From: Desulfosporosinus sp.
GTDB taxonomy: Bacteria > Bacillota > Desulfitobacteriia > Desulfitobacteriales > Desulfitobacteriaceae
Assembly: GCA_020692355.1 (NCBI GenBank)
Contig: JAIMKP010000020.1
Coordinates: 1-54,700, forward strand
Direction: 5' to 3'
DNA: 54,700 nucleotides
Position numbers and translations under genes: made by a program. The notes beneath the pieces are model-generated. The model saw nothing but the letters and a program-made list of their open reading frames with translations, did not search any database and was not told the origin of the DNA. This document shows, in pieces, positions 251 through 49,039 of the stretch (within the stretch, counting starts at the first letter, position 1; each line of letters begins with the position of its first letter).

Positions 251-430
251 TTTCTTTTAATTTAAAGGGATGGGGAATTTCCCGCTGCTTACGGTGGGGA
301 GAATTCATTATGAAAAATGCGAAAAACGATATTGCCGAACAAAGGAATAGTAAAAGACGGAATATGCTCGTGCGTGGCTTCTGGCTTCGAAGACAGGTGG
401 AATCGCTCAATCGACACCATCGAATTTCCG

Positions 431-483
431 GATTGCATAATCGGGAATCTGTATTTTACAGGAGTTGTACATGGGTGTTTAAT
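431..483 (+). promoter_or_regulatory. Promoter/operator module of the dsrMK-like operon
   Basis: A sigma-A-like promoter TTTACA (455-460), 17-bp spacer, TTTAAT (478-483) is preceded by a palindrome-like site GATTGCATAATC (431-442). A second inverted repeat, CTGTATTTTACAG (449-461), covers the -35. The whole arrangement, including the 24-bp step from operator start to -35, recurs at 4876-4928 ahead of the ferredoxin-dsrAB genes, which argues that one regulator controls both units. The transcript would carry a leader of about 75 nt before dsrM. Confidence 0.7.
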
Positions 484-566
484 AGGGGTGAACTTAGTGC
501 TAATGAATACAAGTGCATCAATCCTGAGTGCAGGCAAAGAATCTCATAGCCAAGGAGGCGGTATCG

Positions 567-1469
567 ATGTTATGGATTTTTTATGGTTCGGCCTTGCTGT
601 TTTTGGTGTTATCCGGATACAAGGCCTATGTGTTTACCAAAATGCCGCTACATGGAAGGATGGAGCTTTACCCGGTTCCGAAGGAAAAGGGGAAAAGTGA
701 ATATGGCGGCTCCTATTTTGAAGAAGTGGAATGGTGGCACAAACCCCGGGAGTTATCGGGTTTTAGCGAATTGAAGGATATGCTCAAAGAGATGCTCTTT
801 ATCAAGAAGCTCTTCCAGAATCAACGGTCACTGTGGTGGGTGTCATATGCCCTGCATCTGGGGATTTATCTTTTGGCAGCCTGGACGGCACTGTTGATCG
901 TCGGGGCGATCAGCGGCTTGGCCGGTATGCCGATTAGCGCTAGTGGCAGACTCCTTCCTGGAGCGTGGCCTGCTTTTCTTTATTATTTAACGGCACTATG
1001 CGGCAATCTGGGTTTTGCCTGTGCAACCTTCGGAGCAGCGGCATTGCTTTGGCGGCGGGCCTTTGACCCTGTTTTACGTAAATATACGACACCGCAGGAA
1101 TATTTTAATCTCCTGCTGCTTTTGGCGGCTCTGGTTAGCGGCCTGATTGTTTGGTTTCCTGATCTTTTTTATCAGGAGGCACGGACGGTGATGGCGGATT
1201 TCCTGAGTCTTACGCCACCCCAAGCGACAGGAACCTTGACCCTGCATGTCATCCTGGTGGGCTTTATGTTCATTTATATTCCGCTCAGCAAAATGAGCCA
1301 TTATGTAGGGAAATACTTTACCTTCCACAAAGTTCTCTGGGAAAATGATCCCAATCTGCCAGGTAGCGAGATCGAGAAAAAAGTACAAGCTGCGCTCGGG
1401 TACAAACCGGGCCACACGTGGTCGGCGCCGCATGTTCAGACGGTTCGTCCACAAAATCAGGATAGGTGA
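567..1469 (+). CDS. dsrM: DsrM-like membrane cytochrome b subunit (stand-alone DsrMK pair)
   Basis: This is a 300-aa membrane protein of the nitrate-reductase-gamma/DsrM family, which oxidises menaquinol and passes electrons through haem b to a DsrK-type partner. Hydrophobic segments lie near residues 1-20, 95-120, 130-160, 190-212 and 235-258, with several His residues in or near them as candidate haem ligands. The ATG at 567 was chosen because AGGAGG at 553-558 sits at ideal distance; an in-frame extension to 528 lacks such a site. The DsrK-like gene starts 21 nt downstream. This is the second dsrM of the locus (the other is in dsrMKJOP), and the two are clearly diverged. Family assignment is firm; the redox partner in vivo is inferred. 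Confidence 0.85.
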   Translation: MLWIFYGSALLFLVLSGYKAYVFTKMPLHGRMELYPVPKEKGKSEYGGSYFEEVEWWHKPRELSGFSELKDMLKEMLFIKKLFQNQRSLWWVSYALHLGIYLLAAWTALLIVGAISGLAGMPISASGRLLPGAWPAFLYYLTALCGNLGFACATFGAAALLWRRAFDPVLRKYTTPQEYFNLLLLLAALVSGLIVWFPDLFYQEARTVMADFLSLTPPQATGTLTLHVILVGFMFIYIPLSKMSHYVGKYFTFHKVLWENDPNLPGSEIEKKVQAALGYKPGHTWSAPHVQTVRPQNQDR

Positions 1470-1490
1470 TGAGGGAAAGGGGGGTTGACC

Positions 1491-3101
1491 ATGCACGATG
1501 CGAAAACCTTAAAACCAAGCGATCTGGGACGGCAGGAAGAACAATTGATTGTTGTCGATAATTTGATGCCTTTGTTGCCACCGTATGATCAGCCGGGGAT
1601 GGAGCGTCCGTTTGGCGAAGTTAAAGGAGCCTGGCGAGAAAAATACTGCACGTCCCTGGATGGGTTTGTCGGGATCGATACGTTGCAGCGGCCTAAGACG
1701 AAGGAAGAAGAAAAGGAGTTTGTTCAGAAATTTCTAAACGGGCTGGAAAAGATTCTATCGGATGCTAACAATGGGATGTTGCAGCCCCTCTTGTTGTCGT
1801 TAGAGTATTGTGCTAAATGCAACACGTGTTCTGAAGCCTGCCATGTTTTTCAGGCCTCCGGCGGGAACGAACTTTACCGTCCGATTTTTCGTTCGGAGGC
1901 TCTGAGAAAAATGATCAAGAAGTATTTTACCCCCAGCGGGCGGCTTTTGGGTCGCTTTGTCGGGGCGGACATCGAGGTTAACTGGGAGAGCATCGCTCGC
2001 CTGGGGGAACTGGCTTACCGTTGCAATCTGTGTCGGCGGTGCGCGCAGACCTGTCCCTTAGGTCTGGACAATTCAATCTTTGCCAAGGAGATCCGTAAAA
2101 TTTTCAGCCAGGAGCTGGGGATCGCCCCCAGTCCCCTGCATGCCAAGGGTTCCATGATTCAATTGAAAACAGGGTCTTCCACAGGGATTACTAAACCAGC
2201 CTTTCTGGACATGCTGGAATTCATGGAAGAGGATATTGAAGAGAAAACAGGTAAGAAAATTAAGTTCCCTCTTGACAAGGAAGGGGCGGATATCCTCCTC
2301 ATTCATAATGCCGGGGAGTTCATGGCCTGGCCGGAGAATCCGGCTGCGTTTGCGATTCTCTTTGAAGAGGCAGGGTTGAATTGGACGCTGAGTACGGAAC
2401 TCATGGGTTATGACAGTGTGAACTACGGGATTTGGTATGACGATACGCAAGCAAAAAAGATTGCCTTGCAGCAATTCCAAACGGCAAAGCATCTGGGCGT
2501 CCGCCGTATCGTTATCGGTGAATGCGGGCATGCGCATAAAGCGGCTGCTGTAACAGCTGACCGTATGGCGGTCGGGGAAGACAAGATCCCAGTGGAGAGC
2601 TTCCTGCCACTTCTGTGGGATTTGGTGCGCACGGGCCGGCTAAAGTTTGATCCGCAGAAAAACAACTTTCCCGTAACCCTGCACGATCCCTGCAATGTGG
2701 TGCGGCAGATGGGCATCGTCCAACCGCAGCGCCATATTCTTAAGCAGATCTGCCCGCAGTTTCGGGAGATGACGCCGCATGGGGTTGATAATTACTGCTG
2801 TGGCGGCGGCAGCGGTTTTGCCATTATGAACTCTTTAAATTTTGGCCAGTTTCGGGACAAAGTGAGCGGACGCATGAAGTTTAATCAGATCTTAGGTGCT
2901 TTTCAAGATACCATCGAGGATCCGAGTATTCCGAAGTACGTCTGTGCCCCCTGTTCCAATTGCAAAGGCACGATCCGGGAACTCTTGGAGTTTTACCACA
3001 CGACAGAAAAATTCAATGTCCATTACGGCGGTTTGGTGGAACTTATGGTAAATGCTTTGCCCGACTTGGAAAAGCCTTATTTGGAGTTTCTGCAAGCGTG
3101 A
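1491..3101 (+). CDS. dsrK: DsrK-like Fe-S protein (HdrD/CCG-domain), stand-alone DsrMK pair
   Basis: This 536-aa cytoplasmic iron-sulfur protein belongs to the heterodisulfide-reductase-D/DsrK family. Two ferredoxin-type 4Fe-4S motifs (CAKCNTCSEAC near residue 106, CNLCRRCAQTC near 177) are followed by two CCG-type cysteine regions (HDPC near 397, CCGGGSG near 436, CAPCSNC near 485) that in HdrD build the catalytic noncubane cluster. Known DsrK proteins are thought to reduce the DsrC trisulfide. It follows dsrM closely; the ATG at 1491 fits the GGAAAGGGGGG ribosome site better than the TTG at 1485. It is a paralogue of the DsrK at 9566. It could serve another disulfide substrate than DsrC. 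Confidence 0.87.
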   Translation: MHDAKTLKPSDLGRQEEQLIVVDNLMPLLPPYDQPGMERPFGEVKGAWREKYCTSLDGFVGIDTLQRPKTKEEEKEFVQKFLNGLEKILSDANNGMLQPLLLSLEYCAKCNTCSEACHVFQASGGNELYRPIFRSEALRKMIKKYFTPSGRLLGRFVGADIEVNWESIARLGELAYRCNLCRRCAQTCPLGLDNSIFAKEIRKIFSQELGIAPSPLHAKGSMIQLKTGSSTGITKPAFLDMLEFMEEDIEEKTGKKIKFPLDKEGADILLIHNAGEFMAWPENPAAFAILFEEAGLNWTLSTELMGYDSVNYGIWYDDTQAKKIALQQFQTAKHLGVRRIVIGECGHAHKAAAVTADRMAVGEDKIPVESFLPLLWDLVRTGRLKFDPQKNNFPVTLHDPCNVVRQMGIVQPQRHILKQICPQFREMTPHGVDNYCCGGGSGFAIMNSLNFGQFRDKVSGRMKFNQILGAFQDTIEDPSIPKYVCAPCSNCKGTIRELLEFYHTTEKFNVHYGGLVELMVNALPDLEKPYLEFLQA

Positions 3102-3176
3102 AGGACGAGTGGTAAAGTTCCAACGTAAGTACCTTAGAAAAGGAGAAAGAAAAAAGAGAAAGAAGGGTAATTCGCG

Positions 3177-4856
3177 ATGAAAGTCGTGATTATTGGGGGT
3201 GTGGCAACAGGGCCTAAAACCGCGGCCCGTCTGCGTCGACTCCAACCTGAGGCGGAGATCACGGTGGTCGAGGAAGGGGAACTCATCTCTTACGGTGGGT
3301 GTGGGCTGCCGCTGTATCTGAGCAACCTCGTGCCGCAGTTGGATGATTTGCGCACAACGGCTTTTGGTTTGCTGCGCGATCCCTTGTATTTTCGCGAACA
3401 CAAGGATATCGAGATTTTGAACCACACCAGAGCTCTAGCTATCGAGCGGGAGAAAAAAGAGGTGCTAGTTAAAGATCTTGTGACAGGACAGGAAAGACGC
3501 TTGCCGTATGACGTTTTGGTTTTGGCGACAGGAGCCCGACCCGTGCTGCCGCCGCTACCTGGCCGGGATTTGTGGGGGGTGTCTGTCCTGCACCACCCAG
3601 AAGACGCCAGGCAGCTGAAAGACGGGTTGCGGCAGAGAAACGTGCGGCGGGCCACCGTCATTGGGGCCGGACTCATCGGGCTGGAGGCGGCGGATGCCTT
3701 GGCTGCGCAGCGGATTCAGATAAGTGTTTGCGAGTTACAAGGACAAGTGCTGGCGAAAGTCTTCGATCGCGACATGGCCAAGCTTTTGGAGACCCATATG
3801 GTGCGCCGAGGGATTGATTTGCGTCTAAATTGTCGGGTTCAGGCCCTGGAGGGGGATGAGCACGGGAAGGTTTGCGCCGTATTGACGGATCAGGGGCGGA
3901 TCGAAACGGAGCTTGTCATTCTGGCGACTGGCGTTATGCCGCGTGTAGAATTGGCACGGGAGGCTGGACTAAGCCTCGGTGTGACCGGTGCCATTCAAGT
4001 GGATAGCCGGCAGAGGACTAACGATCCCTGGATCTACGCCGGAGGAGACTGTGCCGAACAGAAGCATCTTCTGTCTGGTAAACCCGTCTATGTCCCTCTG
4101 GCTTCGACCGGAAACAAACAGGGGCGGATTATTGCTGACCAAATTGCTGGCCTGGAGGCGGTTTTTCAGGGCGTTCTGGGAACATCTGTGTTGCAGGCCT
4201 TTGAATGGAATATGGGTCGAACGGGTTTGGGGGAGGAGGAGGCAAAAGAGTCAGGTTTCGAGATCATCACAGGCTTGATCAGTGGCCATGATGCGACCCA
4301 TTACCATCCATTTCATGCCAGCCTAACGTTGAAACTGGTGGCTGATCGTTCGGGGCGACTGTTGGGTGCTCAAGTCCTCGGACCGGGTGAAGGCATCAAG
4401 CGTTTAGATGTTTTGACGACACTGATTCAGTTTGGCGGATCCCTGGAAGATGTCATGGGTCTGGATCTCGGGTATGCTCCTCCTTTTGCCACTGCAATGG
4501 ATGTCGTCATCCATGCGGCTAATACGTTGGAAAACAAGCGGCGCAAGCGGGTGTCGGGAATCCAGGCTCAGGAGCTTTGGCAGAGGCTCGGAGCTGAAAA
4601 AGGGATCTGTCTTTTGGATGTTCGGGAGCGGGAGGAAGTTGAAAATCTTCCGATCAAAATTCAGGGCGTTCTCTGGATTCCCCTCGGGGAACTACGCCAA
4701 CGCTGGCGGGAGATTCCGGCGGATGCTGAAGTGGTCGCGGTCTGTGAACGGGGAATTCGTGGGTATGAAGCCGCTTGCTTTCTACAAGGCCGAGGTTTTT
4801 CGGAGGTAGCTTATCTTGAGGGCGGAATGGCGGTATGGGCTGCCTATCAGGAATAA
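3177..4856 (+). CDS. CoA-disulfide reductase-type flavoprotein fused to a rhodanese domain
   Basis: This 559-aa protein combines an FAD/NAD(P)-dependent disulfide oxidoreductase (about residues 1-445) with a C-terminal rhodanese domain (about 460-559). Visible signatures are the N-terminal dinucleotide fold (IIGGVATG), the single redox cysteine in SYGGCGLP (about residue 42) typical of CoA-disulfide and NADH:polysulfide reductases, a second nucleotide fold (IGAGLIGLEAA), the FAD motif YAGGDCAE, and the rhodanese loop CERGIR (Cys about 522). Such fusions reduce CoA-disulfides, CoA-persulfides or polysulfide. Lying between dsrMK and the ferredoxin-dsrAB unit, it probably handles persulfide or zero-valent sulfur linked to sulfite reduction; that substrate is inferred. 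No promoter is seen in the 75-nt gap before it, so it likely shares the dsrMK transcript. Confidence 0.85.
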   Translation: MKVVIIGGVATGPKTAARLRRLQPEAEITVVEEGELISYGGCGLPLYLSNLVPQLDDLRTTAFGLLRDPLYFREHKDIEILNHTRALAIEREKKEVLVKDLVTGQERRLPYDVLVLATGARPVLPPLPGRDLWGVSVLHHPEDARQLKDGLRQRNVRRATVIGAGLIGLEAADALAAQRIQISVCELQGQVLAKVFDRDMAKLLETHMVRRGIDLRLNCRVQALEGDEHGKVCAVLTDQGRIETELVILATGVMPRVELAREAGLSLGVTGAIQVDSRQRTNDPWIYAGGDCAEQKHLLSGKPVYVPLASTGNKQGRIIADQIAGLEAVFQGVLGTSVLQAFEWNMGRTGLGEEEAKESGFEIITGLISGHDATHYHPFHASLTLKLVADRSGRLLGAQVLGPGEGIKRLDVLTTLIQFGGSLEDVMGLDLGYAPPFATAMDVVIHAANTLENKRRKRVSGIQAQELWQRLGAEKGICLLDVREREEVENLPIKIQGVLWIPLGELRQRWREIPADAEVVAVCERGIRGYEAACFLQGRGFSEVAYLEGGMAVWAAYQE

Positions 4857-4875
4857 ACGAACCATGAGGTTTTCA

Positions 4876-4928
4876 GATTGTGCAATCGGGATTTTGTATT
4901 TTACAGGTTGAGCGATAGGGTGTTAAAT
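4876..4928 (+). promoter_or_regulatory. Promoter/operator module of the ferredoxin-dsrAB operon
   Basis: A perfect inverted repeat GATTG-TG-CAATC (4876-4887) lies 24 bp, start to start, before TTTACA (4900-4905); a 17-bp spacer and TTAAAT (4923-4928) follow. TGTA-TTT-TACA straddles the -35. Layout and much of the sequence match the module at 431-483. Binding by one shared transcription factor is inferred; no sequence seen here identifies it. Confidence 0.7.
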
Positions 4929-4978
4929 AGAGGTAGATTGAGAAAGAAAGTGCAAGAACATGAATGGGGGTGTTGTGG

Positions 4979-5167
4979 ATGTACATTGTCAGCATCGATG
5001 AAGAACTCTGTTCCGGGTGCAACGCGTGCACGGCAGGATGTCCGGCACGGCTGCTCAAATTCAACGGGGAGAAAACCGAAGTTGCGGGTGAGGCGACGGA
5101 ATGTATGGGTTGTGAGAGCTGTATCACGGTCTGTCCGACGGGAGCGGTGACGATCCAGGAACTCTAG
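4979..5167 (+). CDS. Two-cluster [4Fe-4S] ferredoxin
   Basis: This 62-aa protein has two CxxCxxCxxxC motifs (CSGCNACTAGC near residue 11, CMGCESCITVC near 40), the pattern of a small bacterial 2[4Fe-4S] ferredoxin. It is the first gene after the promoter at 4876-4928, 46 nt ahead of dsrA, so it is likely co-transcribed with dsrAB and a candidate electron carrier to DsrAB. The ATG at 4979 is preferred because the protein then begins, as in relatives, with MYIVSIDEE; an ATG at 4964 would add five residues and lose the GGGGGTG ribosome site. Confidence 0.88.
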   Translation: MYIVSIDEELCSGCNACTAGCPARLLKFNGEKTEVAGEATECMGCESCITVCPTGAVTIQEL

Positions 5168-5213: not shown

Positions 5214-6401
5214 ATGACGGAGAAAAAAACGCCACAGCTTGATGAGCTGGAAAAAGGCCCCTGGCCCAGCTTTGTCAGCGAAATTAAGAGAGCCGCTGTC
5301 AAAAGCGAGGCCGCGAAGGATCTGCTGAATCTGCTGGAACGCTCGTACGAAGACAAGAAAGGCCACTGGAAACATGGTGGGATCGTCGGGGTCAAAGGAT
5401 ATGGCGGGGGAGTCATCGGTCGCTATACGGATTTGCCGGGGGAATTCCCCCATGTCGCGGAATTTCATACGATGCGCTTGAATCAACCCAGTGGCTGGTT
5501 TTATACCACGGATAAATTGCGCCAAATTTGTGACATTTGGGAGAAACATGGGAGTGGCTTAACGAACTTCCATGGTTCTACCGGAGACATTATTTTGCTG
5601 GGAACGAAGACAGAGCACTTGCAGCCGGCTTTTGACGAGTACAGCGATGCCGGGTTTGACCTGGGAGGCTCCGGTTCGGATTTGCGCACCCCGAGCTGCT
5701 GTGTGGGTCCAGGCCGCTGTGAACATGCCTGTTATGATACCTTGGATATGTGTTATGACATCACCAACGAATTTCAGGATGAGTTGCACCGTCCGATGTG
5801 GCCTTATAAGTTCAAAATCAAGATGTCGGGCTGTGCGAATGATTGTGTCGCCTCAATCGCCCGGGCTGACTGTTCGGTCATTGGCACCTGGAGAGACACC
5901 TTGACGATTGATCAGGATGCGATCAAGGCCTATGCCGCAGAAGGGCTTGACATTCAAGGCATGGTCTGTGACAAGTGCCCGACGCGGGCTCTCAAGTATG
6001 ATGCCGCAAAACAGGAACTACATGTCATACCAGAAGATTGCTCGCGCTGTATGCACTGCATCAACGTGTTGCCCAAAGCGGTACAACCGGGTCAGGAAAA
6101 GGGTGCCACTATCCTCCTGGGTGGGAAATCCACGATTGTGCAATCTGCCTTTCTCGCCTGGGTGATCGTGCCCTTTATGAAGATGGAAGCTCCCTATACG
6201 GAGTTTAAGGATTTGATGCGGCGCATTTGGGAATGGTGGGATGAGAACGGCAAGACGCGCGAACGGGTGGGCGAACTGATTTACCGGGTCGGCATGGGCC
6301 GGTTCCTCCGGGAAGTCGGACTCGCACCGGTGCCACAGATGGTCTTCAGGCCACGGGCCAATCCCTATGTTTTCTGGCCGCAGGATGAAATCGTTAAATA
6401 G
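5214..6401 (+). CDS. dsrA: Dissimilatory sulfite reductase alpha subunit
   Basis: This 395-aa subunit of the cytoplasmic DsrA2B2 siroheme enzyme reduces sulfite with DsrC as sulfur acceptor. The siroheme/[4Fe-4S] cysteines appear as CCVGPGRC (about residue 161) and CANDC (about 207). The inserted ferredoxin domain follows with CDKCPT (about 255) and CSRCMHC (about 279). Length is slightly shorter than typical proteobacterial DsrA (about 420-440 aa), as in Gram-positive forms. An AGGGTG ribosome site precedes the ATG. dsrB follows after 34 nt. The assignment is secure from the motif set and from neighbours dsrB and dsrD. Confidence 0.97.
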
Positions 6402-6435: not shown

Positions 6436-7494
6436 ATGTCCAGAATTGATGCAGGTCCTCCTAACTACCGCGAGATGCTGCCGCCGATTATCTTGCAGAA
6501 CTACGGAAAATGGCAATATCATGAACTTCCTCAGCCCGGTGTTTTAAAACACGTCAGCGAAAACGGCTCGGAACTCTACAGTGTGCGCGTGGGCTCGCCA
6601 CGTCTGGTGAGTATTGATTTCATCCGCGAGATCTGTGATTTGGCCGATACCTACTGTGACGGTTATCTGCGCTTTACCAGCCGGAACAATATTGAGTTCC
6701 TAGTCGGGGATCCGGTCAAAGTTGCCCCCCTGCTCCAAGCCCTGGAAGCCAAAGGGCTGCCGGTCGGGGGAACAGGCAACGCCCTCAGCAATATTGTGCA
6801 TACGCAAGGCTGGGTGCACTGCCATACGCCGGCTACCGATGCCTCCGGCATTGTCAAGTCGGTCATGGATGACTTGTTCGAGCATTTTGGCCACATGGAC
6901 TTACCCGCCAAGCTGAAGATTGCCATGGCCTGCTGCCTCAACATGTGCGGAGCGGTGCACTGCAGTGACATTGCAATTCTCGGCGTGCATAGGACGCCTC
7001 CGCGGGTCAACGATGAGATCATCCAGAAAGGAACGGAGATCCCGACCTTGGTCGGTGCTTGTCCGACGGGGGCGATCCGTCCGAATCCCAAGACCAAGAG
7101 TGTGGTCGTCAACGAAGAGCGCTGTATGTATTGCGGGAACTGCTACACGATGTCTCCGGGTATGCAAATATTGGATGAGAAGAATGATGGTGTGGCGATT
7201 CTCGTGGGCGGCAAGGTGTCCAACGCCCGGACAGCTCCGAGCTTTTCCCGTTTGGTCATCCCGTTTATGCCCAATAATCCGCCGCGCTGGCCGGAAGTGA
7301 CCGAGGCGGTGCATCATATCGTGGATGTCTGGATGAAGTATGCTCGGCGCGGAGAGCGCGTCGGTGAGTGGATTGAGCGCATTGGCTGGGAGAAATTCTT
7401 TGGCCTGACCGGGCTACCTTTCAGCGACAAGCTGATCGACGACTTTATCTTCTCCAAGGAGACGTTTAGGACGACGGCAGCCTTTAAGTACTGA
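6436..7494 (+). CDS. dsrB: Dissimilatory sulfite reductase beta subunit
   Basis: This 352-aa partner of DsrA carries, in the known enzyme, the catalytically active siroheme. Cysteine motifs [14 protein letters not shown] (about residues 164-176) and the ferredoxin domain GACPTGAI plus CMYCGNC (about 215-240) are present. Conserved DsrB stretches such as [10 protein letters not shown] occur in the N-terminal third. An AGGTGG ribosome site lies 8-13 nt before the ATG. It is followed by dsrD after 29 nt, so fdx-dsrA-dsrB-dsrD form a tight unit. Confidence 0.97.
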
Positions 7495-7883: not shown

Positions 7884-8507
7884 ATGGCACAAGTAGGAAG
7901 CCCTCTCAAGGAAATGGGAAGCCTTCTCAAGGAAAAAGAAGAGCGAATCTTGGCTAGGTGGCAGAGTGTCCTCTTAGGGAGTTATCCAGAGAGTGCAGCG
8001 CGATTCTTTCAAAACAAGGACGCTCGTTTTACAAACCCAGTGGCCTACGCTTTAGAAGCAGGCATTCATGAGGTTTGGAACGGGCTCTTGGAGGGGAAAA
8101 CATCCCAGGAGCTCGCCCAAGCACTGGATCCCTTGCTGCGCCTGAGAGCGACGCAGGAACTGAGTCCCAGCCAGGCCGTAGGATTTATTCTCAAGTTAAA
8201 GGGGATCCTGCAAGAGGAAATGTCCACTGTAGGCCAATCGGCTCCAGAGGCTGCGGCACTCTTTTCTCTGGAGGAGCGGATTGACGCTCTGGCCTTGCTG
8301 GCCTTTGATGGGTACGTTCGTTGTCGGGAGCAGATTTTCGAACTTCGGGTCAGAGAACTGCGCCTGACGCTCGGAGGATTGTCCCCGAGAGAACGGGATG
8401 TGTCCTCAGGAGAACGGGATGTGTCCTCAGGAGAACGGGATGTGTCCTCAGGAGAACGGGACGTGGGGCCGGGTGTGCTCAACCTGACGCACCGGGCGAG
8501 GGAGTAA
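7884..8507 (+). CDS. RsbRD N-terminal-domain protein in front of dsrMKJOP
   Basis: This 207-aa soluble, mostly alpha-helical protein resembles the RsbRD_N domain (the non-haem globin-like N-terminal part of stressosome RsbR paralogues): KEKEERILARWQ near residue 15, a PVAYALEAG helix near 55, and LSPSQAVGFILKLKGIL near 95. No STAS domain follows. The C-terminal end instead holds three and a half in-frame copies of ERDVSSG (about residues 169-194), encoded by 21-bp tandem repeats. Its position between dsrD and dsrM suggests a sensory or assembly role for the membrane complex; that is inference. GGAGGAG precedes the ATG. Confidence 0.7.
   Translation: MAQVGSPLKEMGSLLKEKEERILARWQSVLLGSYPESAARFFQNKDARFTNPVAYALEAGIHEVWNGLLEGKTSQELAQALDPLLRLRATQELSPSQAVGFILKLKGILQEEMSTVGQSAPEAAALFSLEERIDALALLAFDGYVRCREQIFELRVRELRLTLGGLSPRERDVSSGERDVSSGERDVSSGERDVGPGVLNLTHRARE
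8389..8463 (+). repeat. 21-bp in-frame tandem repeat inside the RsbRD-domain gene
   Basis: Three perfect consecutive 21-nt units start at 8389, 8410 and 8431 (GAGAACGGGATGTGTCCTCAG reads across each), with a partial fourth at 8452. Each unit encodes seven residues, so copy changes keep the frame. Confidence 0.9.
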
Positions 8508-8572
8508 GACATGCTAACGGCTAATCTGGAAGCATGTGGAGAAACATGTGGGCTTGGAGAGAGGTGAGGGAG

Positions 8573-9559
8573 TTGAAGATTCTATACCCTTTATTGGGCG
8601 TATTAGCCCTCGTTCTACTCGCGTACGCGGGGGTTGTGGCGCATCTGAATGTTTTTTTTGGCATAGTTGTTCCGTATCTGGCGTTTTTGCTGTTTCTGGT
8701 CGGATTCATGGTTAGGGTGATCACGTGGGGCCGGTCTCCTGTTCCCTTTCGCATCCCGACGACCTGCGGGCAACAGAAATCCTTGCCTTGGATTAAACAG
8801 AATCGGCTTGAGAATCCGTCCTCTGCTCTGGGCGTTGTCGGTCGGATGACTTTGGAAGTCCTTCTGTTTCGCTCCCTTTTTCGCAATCTGAAGACAGAGA
8901 AGCGGGGAGATCGCTTAGCTTATGGTTCCGCCAAGTGGTTGTGGCTGGGAGGGCTGGTCTTTCACTGGTCTTTTCTCATCATCGTGTTGCGGCATCTCAG
9001 GCTATTCATGGAGCCGGTGCCGGTGTTGATCACGCAATTGGGTGACTTAGATAGCTTTCTCCAAATCGGAATTCCTCTCTTCTATATCACAGATGGACTT
9101 ATTTTGGCGGCTTTAACCTACCTCTTTTTGCGCCGGGTGCTCGTGCCGCAGATTCGCTACATTTCCCTGCAGGCAGACTATTTCCCCCTGTTTTTGCTCC
9201 TGGGGATCGCCGCCAGCGGCGTGCTGATGCGCTATGTGTGGAAAGTGGATATCGTGGAGGTGAAGGCGTTAACCATGAGTTTGGTCACGCTGAGGCCGGA
9301 AGTACCACTTTCGATCGGAGCCATCTTTTACATTCATCTTTTCCTGGTGAGTGCTCTGTTCGCCTACTTTCCGCTCAGCAAGCTGATGCATATGGGAGGG
9401 GTGTTCCTGAGCCCGACGCGCAACATGATCAACAACAGCCGTAGCGTTCGGCATATCAATCCCTGGAATTATCCGGTGCAGGTACACACTTATGAGGCGT
9501 ACGAAGCGGAGTTCCGGGCGAAGATGAAGAAGGCCGGGCTACCGCTGGAAACGGAGTGA
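8573..9559 (+). CDS. dsrM: DsrM, cytochrome b subunit of the DsrMKJOP complex
   Basis: This protein of about 328 aa is the membrane subunit of DsrMKJOP, related to NarI. It should oxidise menaquinol near the outside of the membrane and carry electrons by two b haems to DsrK. Hydrophobic segments occur near residues 3-20, 25-45, 125-145, 170-195, 205-225 and 255-275. Start choice is open: the TTG at 8573 (then MKILYPLLG) follows a GGTGAGGGAG ribosome site, while GTG 8564, ATG 8546 and ATG 8534 are in frame but poorly served. DsrK begins 6 nt after the stop. It differs clearly from the DsrM at 567. Confidence 0.9.
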   Translation: MKILYPLLGVLALVLLAYAGVVAHLNVFFGIVVPYLAFLLFLVGFMVRVITWGRSPVPFRIPTTCGQQKSLPWIKQNRLENPSSALGVVGRMTLEVLLFRSLFRNLKTEKRGDRLAYGSAKWLWLGGLVFHWSFLIIVLRHLRLFMEPVPVLITQLGDLDSFLQIGIPLFYITDGLILAALTYLFLRRVLVPQIRYISLQADYFPLFLLLGIAASGVLMRYVWKVDIVEVKALTMSLVTLRPEVPLSIGAIFYIHLFLVSALFAYFPLSKLMHMGGVFLSPTRNMINNSRSVRHINPWNYPVQVHTYEAYEAEFRAKMKKAGLPLETE

Positions 9560-9565
9560 CGGGGT

Positions 9566-11176
9566 ATGGCTAAAAAGGTGAAGCCGGAAGAATTACTGCA
9601 GTATGACTTGAAGCCGCCAAGGCAGGAATGGGTGGACACTCCAGTGGAGTTAAAGCCGGGCACATTTTGTTGGGGTGCGAAGGGGAAAAATCTGCAGACT
9701 GTGGGGTTCCCCAATGCCCGTGACTGGTCGCCCACCGAGGAGGACTGGAAACTACCGGAGGACTGGCAGGAAACGATCCTGGAGGGGATCGCGGATCGAC
9801 TGAAAAAATATCGTTCTTTTCGCCTGTTTATGGATGTCTGTGTGCGCTGCGGGGCTTGCGCGGATAAGTGTCACTTCTACATGGGCTCAGGGGATCCGAA
9901 GAATATGCCGGTATTGCGGGCAGAACTTCTCCGTTCGGTTTACCGTCGCTATTTTACCACACCGGGAAAACTCTTGGGCCGCTGGGCTGGGGCTAGGGAA
10001 CTCACGCCAGACGTGCTCAAAGAGTGGTGGTACTACTTCTTCCAGTGTACGGAGTGCCGCCGCTGTTCGGTCTTCTGTCCTTACGGGATCGACCAGGCCG
10101 AGATGACCATGATGGGCCGCGAACTCCTCAATTTGCTGGGACTCAATACGGATTGGATCGCCGGCCCCGTAGCTAACTGTTACATGAAGGGAAACCATGT
10201 GGGGCTCGAGCCGCAGACGATCACCAGCAACATCGAATTCATGTTGGAAGACATCGAGACGGTTACGGGTATTCAAATCGAGCCCAACTTTAACCGCAAA
10301 GGGGCAGAAATCCTGTTTGTGGCACCATCGGGGGACTTCTTCGCCGAACCGGGTACGTACACGTTTATGGGCTATTTGATGCTTTTTGAGGAATTAGGGT
10401 TGGACTATACCCTAAGCACGTATGCTTCCGAGGGCGGGAATTTTGGCTTTTTTACTTCTAATGAGATGGCAAAGCGGCTGAACAGTAAGATCTATGCTGA
10501 GGCTAAACGCCTCGGGGTGAAGTGGATTCTCGGCGGGGAATGCGGGCACATGTGGCGGGTGGTTCATCAGTATATGGACACCTGGAACGGTCCGGCGGAT
10601 TTCTTGGAAGAGCCGGTATCGCCGATCACGGGGACAAAATTCGAAAATGCCAAATCAACCAAGATGGTGCATATTGCGGAATTTACGGCGGATTTGATCC
10701 AGCATAATAAGCTGAAATTGGATAAAAGCCGCAATGATCACTTGAGGGTCACCTTCCACGATTCCTGTAATACGGCACGGGGCATGGGGATTTTGGAAGA
10801 GCCGCGCTATATCATTCGGAACGTCTGTAATCATTTTTATGAGATGCCGGAAGAGACAATCCGGGAGAAGACGCTCTGCTGTGGGAGCGGATCAGGGCTT
10901 AACGCCGGAGAGAACCTGGAACTCCGTTTGCGGGGTGGGTTCCCACGGGCTAACGCTGTGCGCTATGTCCGGGAAAAATACGGAGTGAACATGCTGGCTA
11001 ACATCTGTGCGGTGGACCGGGCCGCCATGCCGACGCTCATGGATTATTGGGTTCCGGGCGTCGGTGTGACTGGGGTACACGAGCTTGTGGCCAATGCTTT
11101 GGTCATGAAAGGGGAAAAGGAACGGACGACGGATCTGCGCGGGATGCCTTTACTTGGAAAGGACGGTGAGGCCTGA
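9566..11176 (+). CDS. dsrK: DsrK, catalytic Fe-S subunit of DsrMKJOP
   Basis: This 536-aa protein has the same layout as the DsrK at 1491: CVRCGACADKC near residue 91, CTECRRCSVFC near 161, then CCG-type motifs HDSC near 398 and CCGSGSG near 437. In the complex it is the cytoplasmic subunit that binds DsrC and reduces its trisulfide. The gene is wedged between dsrM (6-nt gap) and dsrJ (the stop shares a base with dsrJ's ATG), showing tight translational coupling. The last CCG region reads CAVDRAAMPT, so the final CxxC of the other copy (CAPCSNC) is not conserved here; the two DsrK forms may differ in cluster ligation. Confidence 0.94.
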   Translation: MAKKVKPEELLQYDLKPPRQEWVDTPVELKPGTFCWGAKGKNLQTVGFPNARDWSPTEEDWKLPEDWQETILEGIADRLKKYRSFRLFMDVCVRCGACADKCHFYMGSGDPKNMPVLRAELLRSVYRRYFTTPGKLLGRWAGARELTPDVLKEWWYYFFQCTECRRCSVFCPYGIDQAEMTMMGRELLNLLGLNTDWIAGPVANCYMKGNHVGLEPQTITSNIEFMLEDIETVTGIQIEPNFNRKGAEILFVAPSGDFFAEPGTYTFMGYLMLFEELGLDYTLSTYASEGGNFGFFTSNEMAKRLNSKIYAEAKRLGVKWILGGECGHMWRVVHQYMDTWNGPADFLEEPVSPITGTKFENAKSTKMVHIAEFTADLIQHNKLKLDKSRNDHLRVTFHDSCNTARGMGILEEPRYIIRNVCNHFYEMPEETIREKTLCCGSGSGLNAGENLELRLRGGFPRANAVRYVREKYGVNMLANICAVDRAAMPTLMDYWVPGVGVTGVHELVANALVMKGEKERTTDLRGMPLLGKDGEA

Positions 11177-11571
11177 TGTATAAGGGAGGAAGGATCATCG
11201 CTGGGCTCCTACTTTTTGCCTGCCTGGCGCTAATGCCATTTCTTATTAACATTGGGAAGGCAGCGGCCAAGCCGAGCCCGCAAGTGAATACACCCTTCAT
11301 TCAACAGCTAACAACTCAGACCTGTGTGGAGCCGGCTGCGTTTATGAAAACAGAGCATATGCAACTCTTAAATCAATGGCGGGACGCGGCGCTACGCGAC
11401 GGTAAAACGGTGTATGTCAACAGTCAGGGACAGTCGTTCCCGATTAGCCTGGAAAACAGCTGCCTAAAATGTCACTCCAACCCACAGCAGTTTTGCAACA
11501 CCTGTCATACGTATGCCGCTGTAAAGCCCTACTGTTGGGACTGCCATAATCAGGGAGGGACCAGCCAATGA
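11176..11571 (+). CDS. dsrJ: DsrJ, triheme cytochrome c subunit
   Basis: This 131-aa exported cytochrome has an N-terminal signal anchor (about residues 8-28) and three CxxCH haem sites packed at the C-terminus: CLKCH, CNTCH and CWDCH. The conserved upstream segment TCVEPAAFMKTEHMQLL (about residues 45-62) contains the Cys reported in other DsrJ proteins as an unusual axial haem ligand. Its ATG overlaps the dsrK stop by one base and its end overlaps dsrO by ATGA. The protein should sit on the outer face of the membrane with DsrO. Confidence 0.94.
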   Translation: MYKGGRIIAGLLLFACLALMPFLINIGKAAAKPSPQVNTPFIQQLTTQTCVEPAAFMKTEHMQLLNQWRDAALRDGKTVYVNSQGQSFPISLENSCLKCHSNPQQFCNTCHTYAAVKPYCWDCHNQGGTSQ

Positions 11572-12365
11572 GTGTGACGCGCAGGAGATTTTTAAAGCTG
11601 GGCCTTACGACCTTGGCGGGGGTCGGCGGCGCTATGGCCCTGGATGGGTTCTGGAGAGGAAGTGCGGAGGCCTCCGAGGTTTTAACGGACCAAAAGGCCT
11701 TGAAAGCCAAGCACTGGGCCATGGTGATCGATTCAGACCGCTTAAAATCGGCGGAGAATGTTCAGCGGATGATCGATGCTTGCCATCGGACCCACAATGT
11801 GCCCGACTTTGGCAACAGCAAAGATGAGATCAAGTGGATGGGGACTGAGACGTATGAACATGCTTTCCCAGGGCAGGAGAATGGTTATCTCAATGAGGGC
11901 ATCAAAGAGAAACTTTTCCCGGTGCTGTGTAATCATTGTGAGAATCCGGCTTGTGTGCGGGTTTGTCCGACCCAGGCTACGTTTAAGCGCCCAGATGGGA
12001 TCGTAGCCATGGATTACCACCGCTGCATCGGCTGTCGCTTTTGCATGGCAGCTTGCGCGTTCGGAGCCAGAAGCTTTAATTTCCGGGATCCCCGGCCCTT
12101 TATCAAGCAGGTGAATCCGGATTTCCCCACTCGCACCAAAGGGGTTGTGGAGAAGTGCAATTTCTGCGTGGAGAGGCTGGAGAAGGGGCTTCCACCCGCC
12201 TGTGTTGAGGCAAGCAACGGGGCCTTAATCTTTGGGGATCTGGATGATCCCAATTCGGAAGTGCGCCAAGTTCTAGCTACGCATTACAGCATCCGGCGTA
12301 AACCGGAATTGGGTACAGAACCCAGCGTTTACTATCTCATCGGTGGGGGGGAAGAGCATGCTTGA
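11568..12365 (+). CDS. dsrO: DsrO, exported Fe-S subunit with Tat signal
   Basis: This 265-aa ferredoxin-like protein starts with a twin-arginine signal (TRRRFLKLG, residues 4-12), so it is exported folded. Cysteine motifs for several [4Fe-4S] clusters follow: CNHCENPACVRVC near residue 122, CIGCRFCMAAC near 152, and CNFC near 197, the arrangement of the HybA/DmsB-type family. It overlaps dsrJ by 4 nt and dsrP by 8 nt. In DsrMKJOP it links DsrJ and the NrfD-like DsrP. Confidence 0.94.
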   Translation: MSVTRRRFLKLGLTTLAGVGGAMALDGFWRGSAEASEVLTDQKALKAKHWAMVIDSDRLKSAENVQRMIDACHRTHNVPDFGNSKDEIKWMGTETYEHAFPGQENGYLNEGIKEKLFPVLCNHCENPACVRVCPTQATFKRPDGIVAMDYHRCIGCRFCMAACAFGARSFNFRDPRPFIKQVNPDFPTRTKGVVEKCNFCVERLEKGLPPACVEASNGALIFGDLDDPNSEVRQVLATHYSIRRKPELGTEPSVYYLIGGGEEHA

Positions 12366-13527
12366 GAAAGCTCTAAGCGGAAGCCGAAGGTATTGGGCCT
12401 GGGTCGCGGTTCTATTGGCATTGATTGCTGTCGGGTTCAGTACCTACTTGAAGCAATATCATGAGGGACTAGGGATCACGGGCATGAGCCGGGATGTGTC
12501 CTGGGGGTTATATATCGCTCAGTTCACCTTTCTGGTGGGGGTAGCGGCCTCGGCCGTGATGGTTGCCATTCCCTACTATCTCCACAACTATAAGAAGTTC
12601 GGTAAGATTGTGATTTTAGGGGAGTTTCTGGCCGTGGCTTCCGTGATCATGTGTATCTTGTTCATCTTCGTGGATTTGGGTCAACCGGTGCGCGTGCTGA
12701 ACGTGTTGCTCCATCCGACGCCCCATTCCGTGATGTTTTGGGACATGATCGTGCTGAGCGGATATCTTCTGCTCAACCTCATCATCGGCTGGACTTCCCT
12801 GGGGGCGGAACGCAAGGGATTTCCTCCTCCGTCATGGGTCAAACCGCTGATCTATATCGCCATACCGTGGGCGGTCAGCATTCATACGGTGACAGCGTTT
12901 TTGTATGCCGGATTGCCGGGGAGAAGCCATTGGCTTACGGCGATCATGGCGGCACGCTTTCTGGCTTCGGCTTTTGCTGCCGGTCCTGCACTCCTCGTCA
13001 TCCTCTGCCTGTTGCTGAGACGCTTGAGTACCTTTGACGCGGGGAGCGAAAGCATCCAGGCTTTAGCAAAAATCGTGGCCTATGCCATGAGTGCGAATGT
13101 ATTTTTCTTCCTGCTGGAGGTGTTCACTGCCTTTTACAGCCATATACCTGAGCACATGGCTCCCATTCGCTATCTGTTCTTCGGGCTGGAAGGGCATCAG
13201 GGGCTGGTTGGGTTTATGTGGAGCGCCGCCATTCTCGCCTTTGTGGGTATTGGACTTCTGATTAACCCGTCCACGCGTAAGAATGAGAGGGTATTGCCTT
13301 TCGCTTTGGCGGCGGTGTTCATCGCGGCCTGGATTGACAAGGGTCTGGGGCTTATCGTTGGCGGATTTATTCCTAATCCGATGGGTCGAATCACTGAGTA
13401 TGCGCCGACTTTTCCGGAAATATGGATCACGCTCGGCGTTTACAGTATTGGATTGTTGGTTTTAACCGTTCTCTATAAGGTCGCGATTGCCGTGCGGGAG
13501 GAGGAATCTCTGGCAGCGCACGGATAA
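12358..13527 (+). CDS. dsrP: DsrP, NrfD-type membrane subunit
   Basis: This 389-aa integral membrane protein of the NrfD/PsrC family has about ten hydrophobic segments from residue 12 to the C-terminus. Family members exchange electrons with the quinone pool without haem and pair with a DsrO-type Fe-S protein. The ATG at 12358 is preferred over the GTG at 12343 because GGGGGGAAG lies just before it; translation then overlaps the dsrO end. It closes the dsrMKJOP set. The next 200 nt hold no gene. Confidence 0.93.
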   Translation: MLEKALSGSRRYWAWVAVLLALIAVGFSTYLKQYHEGLGITGMSRDVSWGLYIAQFTFLVGVAASAVMVAIPYYLHNYKKFGKIVILGEFLAVASVIMCILFIFVDLGQPVRVLNVLLHPTPHSVMFWDMIVLSGYLLLNLIIGWTSLGAERKGFPPPSWVKPLIYIAIPWAVSIHTVTAFLYAGLPGRSHWLTAIMAARFLASAFAAGPALLVILCLLLRRLSTFDAGSESIQALAKIVAYAMSANVFFFLLEVFTAFYSHIPEHMAPIRYLFFGLEGHQGLVGFMWSAAILAFVGIGLLINPSTRKNERVLPFALAAVFIAAWIDKGLGLIVGGFIPNPMGRITEYAPTFPEIWITLGVYSIGLLVLTVLYKVAIAVREEESLAAHG

Positions 13528-15969: not shown

Positions 15970-17319
15970 ATGAGCAATATCCCCAACGTTAAAACGACTC
16001 CTACCCTGGGGGGCGGATCCGGTCTGTTTAAGAAGGAAGATTACTGGGCGGTATGGATTGGGCTTGGCACCGTGATTTTGGCCATTATTCTTTGGGCGGC
16101 AGGTAGTAAAGTCATGCCCTCGTTGGCGATCAGTTTTCCGGCTTGGGATAACTTTGCTAAAGTTTCGGCTTATCTCGGGACACACTTGGGCGGGATTATC
16201 GGCCTTTGGTTTTGCTTTTTGATCGTGTTCTCAGTCGCCGTTAAGATTCTGGGACACGACTTAAAAGCGTTCGTTCCCGGGTTTACGATTCTGTTTATTT
16301 TGGGTGTGCTGGTCTCGATTCTCGGAGCTTCGACAACAGCCAAGAAGTGGAGCCTGGAGGCCCCGTTGATGGCTCTGCTGGTGGGGCTGATTATCGGCAA
16401 CTTTGTTCCCATTCCGAAATGGTTGGATACCGCGTTTCGTACCGAGTTTTACGTCAAGACCGGGATTGTCTTGATGGGAGCGACCCTTCCTTTTACGCTC
16501 ATCCTGCAGTCCGGTCCGATGGCGTTCCTCCAGGCAACGATCGTGGCGGTGTCCACCTTCCTGACGATTTATTGGGCAGGAACCCGGTTGTTTGGTTTGG
16601 ACAAACGTTTTTCGACAGCGTTGGCAGCCGGCGGTTCTATCTGTGGGGTCTCGGCCGCGATTGCCATCGGTGGCTCTGTGAAAGCGGAAAAGAATCATGT
16701 TTCCGTGGCCATTTCACTCGTCGTTGTCTGGGCGGTGATCATGGTCTTTCTCCTACCGATCCTGATTAAAGTCTTGCATATTGCTCCCGGACCGGGCGGC
16801 GCCTGGATTGGAACCTCCGAATTCGCCGATGCGGCTGGTATTGCGGCTGCGGCTTCGATTAACGAACAGGCGATTAAGACCTTTACCCTCATGAAGGTCG
16901 TCGGACGTGATATGTTCGTGGGCATCTGGTGCTTTATTATGGCCATGATTTCCGTGACGAAGTGGGAAAAGCGGGATGACGGAACGAAACCGAGCGGTAA
17001 GGAAATCTGGGTTCGTTTCCCAAAATTTGTCCTGGGCTTCTTTGCCGCTTCGATCATTGTTACCCTACTCTTGGCCTTCGTGGATGCACCGACGGCCAAG
17101 AGCGTCAAAGCTAGTATCATCGCTCCGATTTCCATGATCCGGTTGTGGGCGTTCATCTTTACCTTCCTTTGTATTGGCCTGACGACGCGTTTTAAAGACC
17201 TGGCGGCGGTTGGCTGGCGGCCTTTCGCAGCCTTTACAACAGGGGTATTGGTCAATGTGCCGCTGGGCTACATCTTGTCCGTTATCGTCCTGGGTGGCTA
17301 TTGGGAAATGGTAAAATAG
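15970..17319 (+). CDS. YeiH-family (UPF0324) putative sulfur-oxyanion exporter
   Basis: This 449-aa polytopic membrane protein has about 11-12 hydrophobic segments and the family hallmark AAGGSICGVSAAIAIGG (about residues 217-233). The family is called putative sulfate exporter, with little biochemistry. In enterobacteria yeiH stands beside the LysR gene yeiE, whose product responds to sulfite; here a LysR gene also follows. Sitting next to a dsr locus, export of sulfite or sulfate is a sensible but inferred role. AGGAGG precedes the ATG. The stop codon lies in the first unit of a 17-bp tandem repeat. Confidence 0.83.
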   Translation: MSNIPNVKTTPTLGGGSGLFKKEDYWAVWIGLGTVILAIILWAAGSKVMPSLAISFPAWDNFAKVSAYLGTHLGGIIGLWFCFLIVFSVAVKILGHDLKAFVPGFTILFILGVLVSILGASTTAKKWSLEAPLMALLVGLIIGNFVPIPKWLDTAFRTEFYVKTGIVLMGATLPFTLILQSGPMAFLQATIVAVSTFLTIYWAGTRLFGLDKRFSTALAAGGSICGVSAAIAIGGSVKAEKNHVSVAISLVVVWAVIMVFLLPILIKVLHIAPGPGGAWIGTSEFADAAGIAAAASINEQAIKTFTLMKVVGRDMFVGIWCFIMAMISVTKWEKRDDGTKPSGKEIWVRFPKFVLGFFAASIIVTLLLAFVDAPTAKSVKASIIAPISMIRLWAFIFTFLCIGLTTRFKDLAAVGWRPFAAFTTGVLVNVPLGYILSVIVLGGYWEMVK

Positions 17320-17840: not shown

Positions 17841-17882
17841 ATGGTGGTGGGATTCAGGCAAGTGTATAAGGGGGGGAGTCTG

Positions 17883-18833
17883 ATGAGCGAACAAGAGTTT
17901 CTTGCTTTTAAGACGGTTGCTGACACCCGGAATATTACGCTGGCTGCTAAAAAGTTGCACATGAGTCAATCAAGTATTAGCCTTCAGATTCAAAATCTGG
18001 AGAGCCGTTTTGGAGCCCGTTTCTTTGACCGCACGAACAAGGGAGTGACCTTGACCCGGAGCGGCAAGGTTTTCTATAACCACGTGTGCGAAATTCTGGA
18101 CCTTCTCCATAACGTTCAGGAAAAATTAAGCGCCTTAGTCGAGGATCGGCGGGGAATCGTTTGCTTAGGGGCGACGCTCACTATCGGAGAATATGTATTA
18201 CCCCATATTTTGGCCTATTTGTACAATATCCGTCCGGACATTGACTTTAAGGTGAAGATTGCCAATACGGAAGTTATTAGTCAAGACGTCCTGGAGAGAA
18301 ATATTCATATCGGTTTAATTGAGGGTCCCGTGGCGCATCAGAGGGATTTGGTGATTGAGCAGTTTTGGCAAGATGAGTTGGTCGTGGTTGTACCTTATTT
18401 TCATCCCTGGGCAGAACGTAGGAGTATTACTTTGAACGAACTGGCAGGCGAGCGCATGATTGCCCGCGAGGTCGGATCGGGAACCCGAAAAGTCTTGGAA
18501 TTGGCCCTCCAGGAGCGTGGGTTTGATCCGGATAAACTCAATATCACGATGGAACTCGGGAGTACGCAGGCCATTAAGCAGGTCGTGTCTGCCGGATTGG
18601 GCATGACGATTATCTCTTCTCTAACGGTACGACGGGAGTGCGATCAGCGTATTTTTAAAACTCTGCAAATTCAGGATGCTCCGATTTACCGACCTCTGAA
18701 TATCTTGACCTTGGCGCAAACCAATGAAACGAAGGAAGAAAGATTTTTTATTAACTTCTTGCATGACCAGGAAAGTCTCTGCGAAGTTTTGAACCTGGAT
18801 TATTGTAGTTTGGAAAATCCCGCTATCATATAA
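17883..18833 (+). CDS. LysR-family transcriptional regulator
   Basis: This 316-aa protein has an N-terminal winged helix-turn-helix (residues 1-62; ITLAAKKLHMSQSSISLQIQNLE) and a periplasmic-binding-protein-like effector domain (about 90-300). It resembles the CysL/YeiE/CbbR branch. The ATG at 17883 follows GGGGGGAG and gives the usual short N-terminus; an ATG at 17841 directly after the previous stop would add 14 residues. By context it probably senses sulfite, sulfate or a sulfur metabolite and controls the YeiH-like gene through the dyad at 15872-15896; target and ligand are inferred. Confidence 0.88.
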   Translation: MSEQEFLAFKTVADTRNITLAAKKLHMSQSSISLQIQNLESRFGARFFDRTNKGVTLTRSGKVFYNHVCEILDLLHNVQEKLSALVEDRRGIVCLGATLTIGEYVLPHILAYLYNIRPDIDFKVKIANTEVISQDVLERNIHIGLIEGPVAHQRDLVIEQFWQDELVVVVPYFHPWAERRSITLNELAGERMIAREVGSGTRKVLELALQERGFDPDKLNITMELGSTQAIKQVVSAGLGMTIISSLTVRRECDQRIFKTLQIQDAPIYRPLNILTLAQTNETKEERFFINFLHDQESLCEVLNLDYCSLENPAII

Positions 18834-45384: not shown

Positions 45385-45667
45385 TGACTTTTACCTCGGT
45401 TTTGTTAAAATGAGTATAAAATTTAGGGACTTTTTGTAGAAGTTTGCGAAAGGCAGGGAAGGGGAGCAGTACCTGAGAGGACTTTGCGTCAAGAGAGGCG
45501 GCGGGAGGTGTGAGCCGCGCAGCAAAGGGACTTGGGGAACTCGCCCTGGAGCTGTGCCCAGGTTGCAATGGGCATCGGTTGGCTGACGTTAACAGCCTGG
45601 AGTGCTGAATTAGAAATTGGGTGGTAGCGCGAGTAATCCTCGTCCCTTTGGGGCGAGGTTTTCTTTA
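45385..45667 (+). promoter_or_regulatory. Promoter and T-box leader (leucyl) of leuS
   Basis: TTGACT (45385-45390), a 16-bp spacer and TAAAAT (45407-45412) form the promoter. The leader that follows has a candidate CTC Leu specifier at 45540-45542 and a T-box-like GGGTGGTAGCGCG (45619-45631), one base off the usual GGTACCGCG. The terminator is CCTCGTCCC (45638-45646) with GGGGCGAGG (45650-45658) and a T-rich tail. CGAG (about 45629-45632) can pair instead with CTCG (45639-45642) as antiterminator. Uncharged tRNA-Leu would thus raise leuS expression. Confidence 0.88.
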
Positions 45668-48756: not shown

Positions 48757-48788
48757 TGGGCATGCTCCCTTTCTGAAAAATTCAAGTT

Positions 48789-48817
48789 TAGTATGATCAA
48801 AATGATTTGTTTTATAC
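48789..48817 (-). promoter_or_regulatory. Possible sigma-G/F-type promoter for the two coat genes
   Basis: On the minus strand, GTATA (48813-48817), a 17-bp spacer and CATACTA (48789-48795) fit the forespore sigma-G pattern GHATR-N18-CATNNTA except for one spacer base. It lies 33 nt before the 62-aa gene. Confidence 0.4.
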
Positions 48818-48846
48818 TGGGATAAATAGAAACATAGAGATAAGGG

Positions 48847-49039
48847 TTTTCAATAAGTCCATTGTTTGATACAATGAAATTGATGTTATGGTAGGATGGC
48901 TCTGGTGACCCTGGTGTCTCAGGATCACATACATGGAGGCATCTTTTTTCTGTCATTGGCTCTATTTTGATGGGGTCTGCTTCGAGTTACAACCACTGCT
49001 GAATTCGATGAGGTGTACGACTTGCTAAGGGGGATGGGG
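48847..49039 (+). promoter_or_regulatory. Possible promoter and structured leader of the butyrate kinase gene
   Basis: TTTTCA (48847-48852), 17 bp and TACAAT (48870-48875) form a modest promoter. The leader of about 155 nt contains GTGACCCTG (48905-48913) pairing with CAGGATCAC (48920-48928, one wobble), and a T6 tract at 48944-48949. No ORF is seen. It could be an attenuator of unknown type or simply an unrelated hairpin. Confidence 0.4.

Follow-up and report, generated by a model that had tools for sequence, protein, structure and literature searches.

Two promoter modules of one composite architecture at the dsr locus

The dsr locus of a Desulfosporosinus sp., contained in 54,700 nucleotides of contig JAIMKP010000020.1 (the window), carries two related promoter modules, one upstream of an extra DsrMK pair and the other upstream of the genes for a ferredoxin and the dissimilatory sulfite reductase DsrAB. 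Judged from sequence comparison, these modules are probably sigma-A promoters of a single dissimilatory sulfite-reduction regulon, activated by the LysR-type transcriptional regulator (LTTR) encoded at positions 17841-18833 of the same window. Both modules contain a composite site of T-N11-A geometry, which in relatives is present before linked and unlinked dsr genes and has a distribution matching that of the LysR gene.

The modules were recognized in an earlier note by a pair of dyads, GATTGCATAATC at 431-442 and GATTGTGCAATC at 4876-4887, each located 24 bp (start to start) from a TTTACA −35 element that is followed, after a 17-bp spacer, by TTTAAT or TTAAAT (Table 1). The symmetric sequence TGTATTTTACA spans the edge of the −35 box in both modules, as had been described. 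Alignment of positions 414 to 483 with 4859 to 4928 gives 47/70 identities (z 8.1), compared with 35 at the next-ranking place on either strand of the window, and the modules begin near 414 and 4859, farther upstream than the earlier description had placed them. A weight matrix trained on other genera only, with the window genus excluded, ranked the modules first and second in the 54.7 kb, with scores of 31.6 and 30.4, while the highest score in 60 dinucleotide shuffles was 16.4. The proposal of two modules with a common architecture and sequence is thus borne out. The combined dyad and TTTACA pattern occurs twice in the 3.36-Mb genome, at exactly these two modules, and in a comparison genome of the same genus (G040) at the two orthologous places; no module was seen before unrelated genes genome-wide. 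The third-ranking matrix match in the window (48788-48850, score 19.2), 5′ of a butyrate kinase gene, was rejected as a further site, being an A/T-rich patch with poor half-sites.

The exact GATTGnnnAATC dyad did not hold up as the operator. Exact copies also lie at 6134, within dsrA, and at 53398; matches with one mismatch number 24 in the window against 17.5 expected, which is near chance; and outside the genus the dyad has no association with dsr genes. In relatives, the GATTG half is swapped for ATAGT, ATGGT, and the like, whereas the CAAT half and the ATTKTAC sequence are retained. Conservation upstream of dsr genes therefore holds for the composite module and fails for the exact dyad, whose left half relatives have not kept. 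An RNA element at the modules was likewise rejected because the conserved dyad lies 5′ of the predicted transcription start and no Rfam family was found there.

A T-N11-A box overlaps the −35 element

The dsrA gene was matched in 36 of the 46 genomes of the family set, and the DNA 5′ of dsrA was read and aligned. The unit that these relatives conserve is the inverted repeat (G)TACAAT-N11-ATTGTA(C), the right half of which overlaps the −35 element. When every center and spacer was scanned over the aligned promoters, the 7-N11-7 dyad ranked first among 1690 combinations, whether only the dsrAB promoters or the combined set was used. All 37 nonredundant promoters have the T of T-N11-A; the A belongs to the alignment anchor, so only the T was counted. 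By its sequence, the conserved unit is a predicted T-N11-A box as defined for LysR-type regulators (PMC4834489, PMC12609908), with its center near −43 (box 2). A weaker box with a partly conserved half-site (box 1) lies 21 bp farther 5′, with its center at about −64, and the GATTGnnnAATC sequence corresponds to the junction ATWGTRCAAT that the two boxes have in common. The transcription starts (∼490 and ∼4935) are predictions, and box centers are numbered from them; on this numbering the two centers would fit the classical LTTR layout, with the upstream box being poorly conserved. The suggestion that the fixed phasing to the −35 element fits activation is supported by this activator-like arrangement.

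Around the box, sequences vary between lineages. The ferredoxin-dsrAB promoters of genus g5 read GTACAAT-N11-ATTGTAC, N17, TTAAAT, while those of the window genus and some others read GTGCAAT-N11-ATTTTAC or similar, with one extra base before the −10 element. The dsrMK1 promoters of relatives have GTATAAT or TCACAAT-N11-ATTTTACA, N17, and TAAACT or TAGACT. TTAAAT is invariant as the −10 element of ferredoxin-dsrAB promoters across the family except in genus g2, which has TTTAAT. In relatives, TTTTAC or TTGTAC occupies the −35 position of ferredoxin-dsrAB promoters, and the element is off consensus in many of them. It could be argued that such sequences are simply strong or special promoters, built of core elements, UP-like A/T tracts, or an alternative sigma factor, with no regulator site at all; the −35 element, the spacer length, and the −10 element are indeed conserved along with the site, which is A/T-rich and found mainly before respiration genes. 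We regard this explanation as very improbable, given that most relatives have a nonconsensus −35 element (TTGTAC), that conservation extends over 18 bp 5′ of the −35 element and includes an N11 dyad, and that the −10 elements of dsrAB and dsrMK promoters differ while the box is retained.

Linked and unlinked dsr genes are preceded by the site

The composite site precedes ferredoxin-dsrAB and dsrMK in about 36 family genomes. Two sequence models were used: the first (R1) has 60 positions, and the broader second (R2) was trained on dsrAB, dsrMK1, CoA-disulfide reductase, and one transporter promoter, with no dsrMKJOP promoter included; the E-values of the models rest on a shortened calibration. 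Each genome yielded one strong R1 match before dsrAB (two in the window genus), followed by a gap to an E-value of ∼2e-3. Strong model matches before ferredoxin-dsrAB were found in the dsrA-positive family genomes, the exception being G041, a fragmented assembly in which the contig does not include that region.

In most genomes, the extra DsrMK pair sits 5′ of dsrAB. In G001, however, dsrMK1 and the CoA-disulfide reductase gene are located 2.4 Mb from dsrAB, each with a site, and in G002 they are likewise at a separate locus, again each with a site. A tandem second matrix match lies ∼230 bp 5′ of the dsrAB site in both of these genus g2 genomes (L114, 9053, in G001; G002:C54:90167-90223) and may be a relict of the former promoter of dsrMK1 after that gene had moved away. 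Although R2 had seen no dsrMKJOP promoter, it detected unlinked sites 180 to 370 bp 5′ of RsbRD-dsrMKJOP in five g5 genomes (G009, G014, G018, G030, and G037), with E-values of 1e-7 to 1.5e-5; weak R1 matches before RsbRD-dsrMKJOP in G008, G017, and G025 bring the total to eight genomes. In the window, dsrMKJOP is directly 3′ of dsrAB and lacks a separate site. The locus in G042 is unlike the window, with a short dsrM and dsrK after dsrAB (L117, 11287-13370) and no dsrJOP match. Outside the family, G155 has three sites, before its dsrMK-like, exchanger-YeiH, and ferredoxin-dsrAB units. No site was found at the second DsrMK1-like copies of g5 genomes, and a phylum match in G066 (E-value of 6e-4) was rejected as chance, the genome having no dsrA match.

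The idea that one regulator controls both the extra DsrMK pair and ferredoxin-DsrAB is strengthened by the presence of the module before both units in relatives and at unlinked loci. Since the site follows genes that have moved, it also provides outside support for the stand-alone DsrMK and the CoA-disulfide reductase-rhodanese protein being functionally part of sulfite respiration.

A recent local duplication in the genus, without functional conservation, would explain why the two modules of the window genus share 47/70 positions when the dsrAB and dsrMK promoters of the same genome share 28 to 36/70 in 13 other pairs. That value makes it plausible that a dsrAB-type promoter was copied or converted before dsrM in the window genus, adding to a twin arrangement that already existed. 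As the whole explanation, duplication is refuted, and we assign it a negligible probability: in different genera, both genes have orthologous sites before them, and the matrix built without the window genus detects both modules. Copying accounts for the extra similarity but not for the conservation, and the twin arrangement is older than the window genus.

A LysR-type protein is the candidate regulator

The proposed activator matches HTH_1 in its N-terminal part (PF00126, 68.9 bits) and LysR_substrate in its C-terminal part (PF03466, 142.6 bits), both above their cutoffs. Its closest solved structures are the LysR protein 8sbf, CbbR, and YeiE. The score against the YeiE equivalog NF040889 is 170 bits, with a cutoff of 480, so that the protein is related to YeiE and below membership; we therefore term it YeiE-like in context rather than YeiE. 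In all seven clusters of relatives that were examined, the gene lies after dsrN, either directly or via a YeiH gene 3′ of dsrN, and before a nitrilase gene.

All 36 of the dsrA-positive family genomes have the LysR gene, as do 2 of the 10 without a dsrA match, both of which are draft assemblies. Of 299 genomes sampled from the phylum, eight carry LysR, and all eight are dsrA positive, compared with 41/299 genomes overall. Outside the family, the site is found in G155 and G092, which have the LysR gene in the dsr cluster, and none was found in G119 and G077, which lack it there.

A PF03601 YeiH-family gene lies in the neighborhood of the LysR gene, and others are present in the dsr neighborhoods of G004, G042, and G155. 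YeiH-family genes (by PF03601 or by matches to the window protein) are found repeatedly within or next to the dsr clusters of several genera, at varied positions (L184, L112, L117, and L222), and in G155 the YeiH gene and a cation-exchanger-like gene stand behind a LysR-type box of their own.

Another dimeric regulator, encoded elsewhere, might use the composite site, leaving LysR to control only its neighbors, the YeiH-type transporter and the nitrilase. Inverted repeats over the −35 element are common to many regulators, no box was found 5′ of the YeiH gene or the LysR gene of the window, and 14 sampled paralogous LysR loci have no convincing similar box. We nevertheless consider this alternative unlikely in view of the T-N11-A geometry, the 21-bp phasing of two boxes at −64 and −43, and the co-distribution of the site with LysR, including G155 and G092. 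Weak model matches also adjoin other LysR genes, namely a LysR/YeiH pair (G042), a LysR/CidAB-like pair (G023), and a LysR-MFS pair (four genomes), a result that would be expected of a model capturing an LTTR box.

A Rex-like second element

Just 3′ of the predicted start, relatives have a second conserved sequence, which is TAGTGTTAATTTACACAA in most dsrAB promoters and AAGTGANNNNNNTAACAA or TTGTTAAAATAATAACAA at the Rex-like position of dsrMK promoters (G022 has TTGTTAAAATAATAACAA). Compared with the Rex consensus TTGTKA-N6-TMACAA, the dsrMK1 promoters of relatives mostly match 9 to 12 of 12 positions, against a shuffled background of mostly 6 to 9. Of the two window modules, module 1 has a weak form of the element and module 2 a degenerate remnant (Table 1). 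A rex gene is present in the window genome (G000:C92:378-989), and Rex is found in 43/46 family genomes; an exact Rex-box scan for known Rex targets gave too few matches to be used. These sequences suggest a possible Rex step at the promoters, weak in the window. In G005, rex is directly followed by a CoA-disulfide reductase-rhodanese gene (L118, 1350-3673), ∼5 kb 5′ of dsrM1, an adjacency that is a gene-order link of Rex to the Dsr neighborhood.

Features of the window

The coordinates of the promoter elements and genes are collected in Table 1. The RsbRD N-terminal domain protein (7884-8507), whose gene heads the dsrMKJOP operon in relatives, has a tandem SGERDV repeat at its C terminus. Just 5′ of the dsr locus, at 210-256, is a terminator-like hairpin, AACACGCT...AGCGTGTT, followed by a T-run. 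A T-box leader (RF00230) is located at 45447-45650, before leuS.

Table 1. Promoter elements and genes of the dsr locus in the window
Feature	Position	Strand	Basis
Putative box 1 of module 1, ACACCAT-N11-ATTGCAT, center ∼−64	414-438	+	21-bp phase from box 2
Putative box 2 (main) of module 1, GCATAAT-N11-ATTTTAC, center ∼−43, right half over −35	435-459	+	37/37 T, dyad rank 1/1690
−35 element of dsrM1 promoter, TTTACA	455-460	+	Sequence; same position in relatives
−10 element of dsrM1 promoter, TTTAAT; predicted start ∼490	478-483	+	Sequence; start inferred
Rex-like element, weak, TAGTGC-TAATGA-ATACAA	495-512	+	8/12 vs TTGTKA-N6-TMACAA
dsrM1, membrane subunit of extra DsrMK pair	567-1469	+	Pfam Nitrate_red_gam; start codon by ribosome-binding site AAGGAGG
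dsrK1	1485-3101	+	NCBIfam NF045796 DsrK above cutoff
CoA-disulfide reductase-rhodanese fusion, within module 1 transcription unit	3177-4856	+	Pfam and NCBIfam
Putative box 1 of module 2, GAACCAT-N11-ATTGTGC, center ∼−64	4859-4883	+	Sequence, phase
Putative box 2 (main) of module 2, GTGCAAT-N11-ATTTTAC, center ∼−43	4880-4904	+	37/37 T, dyad rank 1
−35 element of ferredoxin-dsrAB promoter, TTTACA	4900-4905	+	Sequence; TTTTAC/TTGTAC in relatives
−10 element, TTAAAT; predicted start ∼4935	4923-4928	+	Family conservation
Degenerate remnant at Rex-like position, AAGTGC-AAGAAC-ATGAAT	4948-4965	+	Well conserved in relatives, not in window
2[4Fe-4S]-type ferredoxin, gene 1 of dsrAB unit	4979-5167	+	Sequence; tblastn matches in relatives
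dsrA	5214-6401	+	NCBIfam dsrA above cutoff
dsrB	6436-7494	+	Open reading frame and homology
RsbRD-domain gene and dsrMKJOP	7884-13527	+	No box of its own here; box where unlinked in relatives
YeiH-family transporter	15970-17319	+	Pfam PF03601
LysR-type regulator (proposed activator), start codon probably the ATG at 17883	17841-18833	+	PF00126 and PF03466

Discussion

Several observations weigh against LysR as the common activator, or against the accompanying Rex step, and the bare paralogous LysR loci are one of them. The co-distribution of site and regulator is not independent for each genome, owing to the kinship among relatives, and it partly reflects shared ancestry because lysR is linked to the site-bearing genes. 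In three f51 genomes, whose LysR is more diverged (51% identity), no box was found before dsrAB; one of the three carries a site at another place in the dsr cluster. The dyad symmetry of box 1, averaged over the aligned promoters, is not significant, and box 1 was rejected as an independently significant dyad. None of the NCBIfam equivalog cutoffs was passed by the LysR protein, the best being a selenium-metabolism LysR model with YeiE second. The weak matches beside other LysR genes were interpreted after the fact, and most dsrAB promoters match the Rex consensus at 8 to 9 of 12 positions, near the shuffled background.

Activation by LysR remains our preferred explanation of the modules. A LysR tetramer would occupy both T-N11-A boxes, which share one helical face and have centers at about −64 and −43, so placed that the downstream box overlaps a −35 element that is off consensus (TTGTAC) in many relatives. 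A co-inducer would then turn the bound LysR into an activator of RNA polymerase at the overlapping −35 element. The co-inducer would most likely be sulfite, the substrate of DsrAB, because the LysR protein is related to YeiE and is encoded near a YeiH-type transporter. A Rex-like operator, spanning about +6 to +27 in relatives, may add control by NADH/NAD there.

Known systems offer parallels to the proposed mechanism. In Bacillus, the LysR-type regulator CysL (YwfM) activates cysJI, likewise a case of LysR-type activation of sulfite reductase in a Gram-positive bacterium, although the target of CysL is assimilatory. YeiE is a sulfite-binding protein that activates yeiH and also controls genes for sulfite reductase (PMC12880088). 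The YeiE-YeiH sulfite response of Salmonella and Cronobacter, with FinR in Pseudomonas (PMC12880088), resembles the present system in its sequence-related LysR, the adjoining YeiH-family transporter, and its sulfite reductase targets. Here, however, the targets are the dissimilatory DsrAB, DsrMK, and DsrMKJOP, lysR lies after dsrN rather than divergent to yeiH, and the protein falls below the YeiE equivalog cutoff. Classical LTTR promoters, including those of CbbR, combine a T-N11-A site near −65 with an activation site near −35 (PMC4834489, PMC12609908), and the T-N11-A boxes predicted here have centers near −64 and −43, with the −43 box lying over the −35 element; in contrast to the classical arrangement, it is the downstream box, rather than the one at −65, that is the better-conserved dyad, and the regulator gene does not lie divergent to its target. 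Rex represses sat in Desulfovibrio vulgaris (Christensen 2015, as cited in PMC7531388). The likeness would lie in redox control of sulfate respiration genes, with Rex-like elements just 3′ of the promoters in relatives, while the genes differ and the putative element is weak in the window.

No description of the control of dissimilatory sulfite reductase genes in Gram-positive sulfate or sulfite reducers emerged from the literature searched. The analysis supplies a specific predicted operator, a specific candidate regulator, and a predicted regulon that covers the DsrAB, DsrMK, and DsrMKJOP steps and can be tested using a single protein and two fragments of DNA. More tentatively, and with somewhat more doubt than confidence, a sulfite-sensing LysR, gated by Rex in most relatives, could be the master switch of dsrAB, dsrMK, dsrMKJOP, and CoA-disulfide reductase in Desulfitobacterium/Desulfosporosinus-like bacteria, with the regulon kept intact though its operons are scattered. 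If its role is true, LysR would be a first candidate for a dedicated controller of sulfite respiration in Gram-positive sulfate and sulfite reducers.

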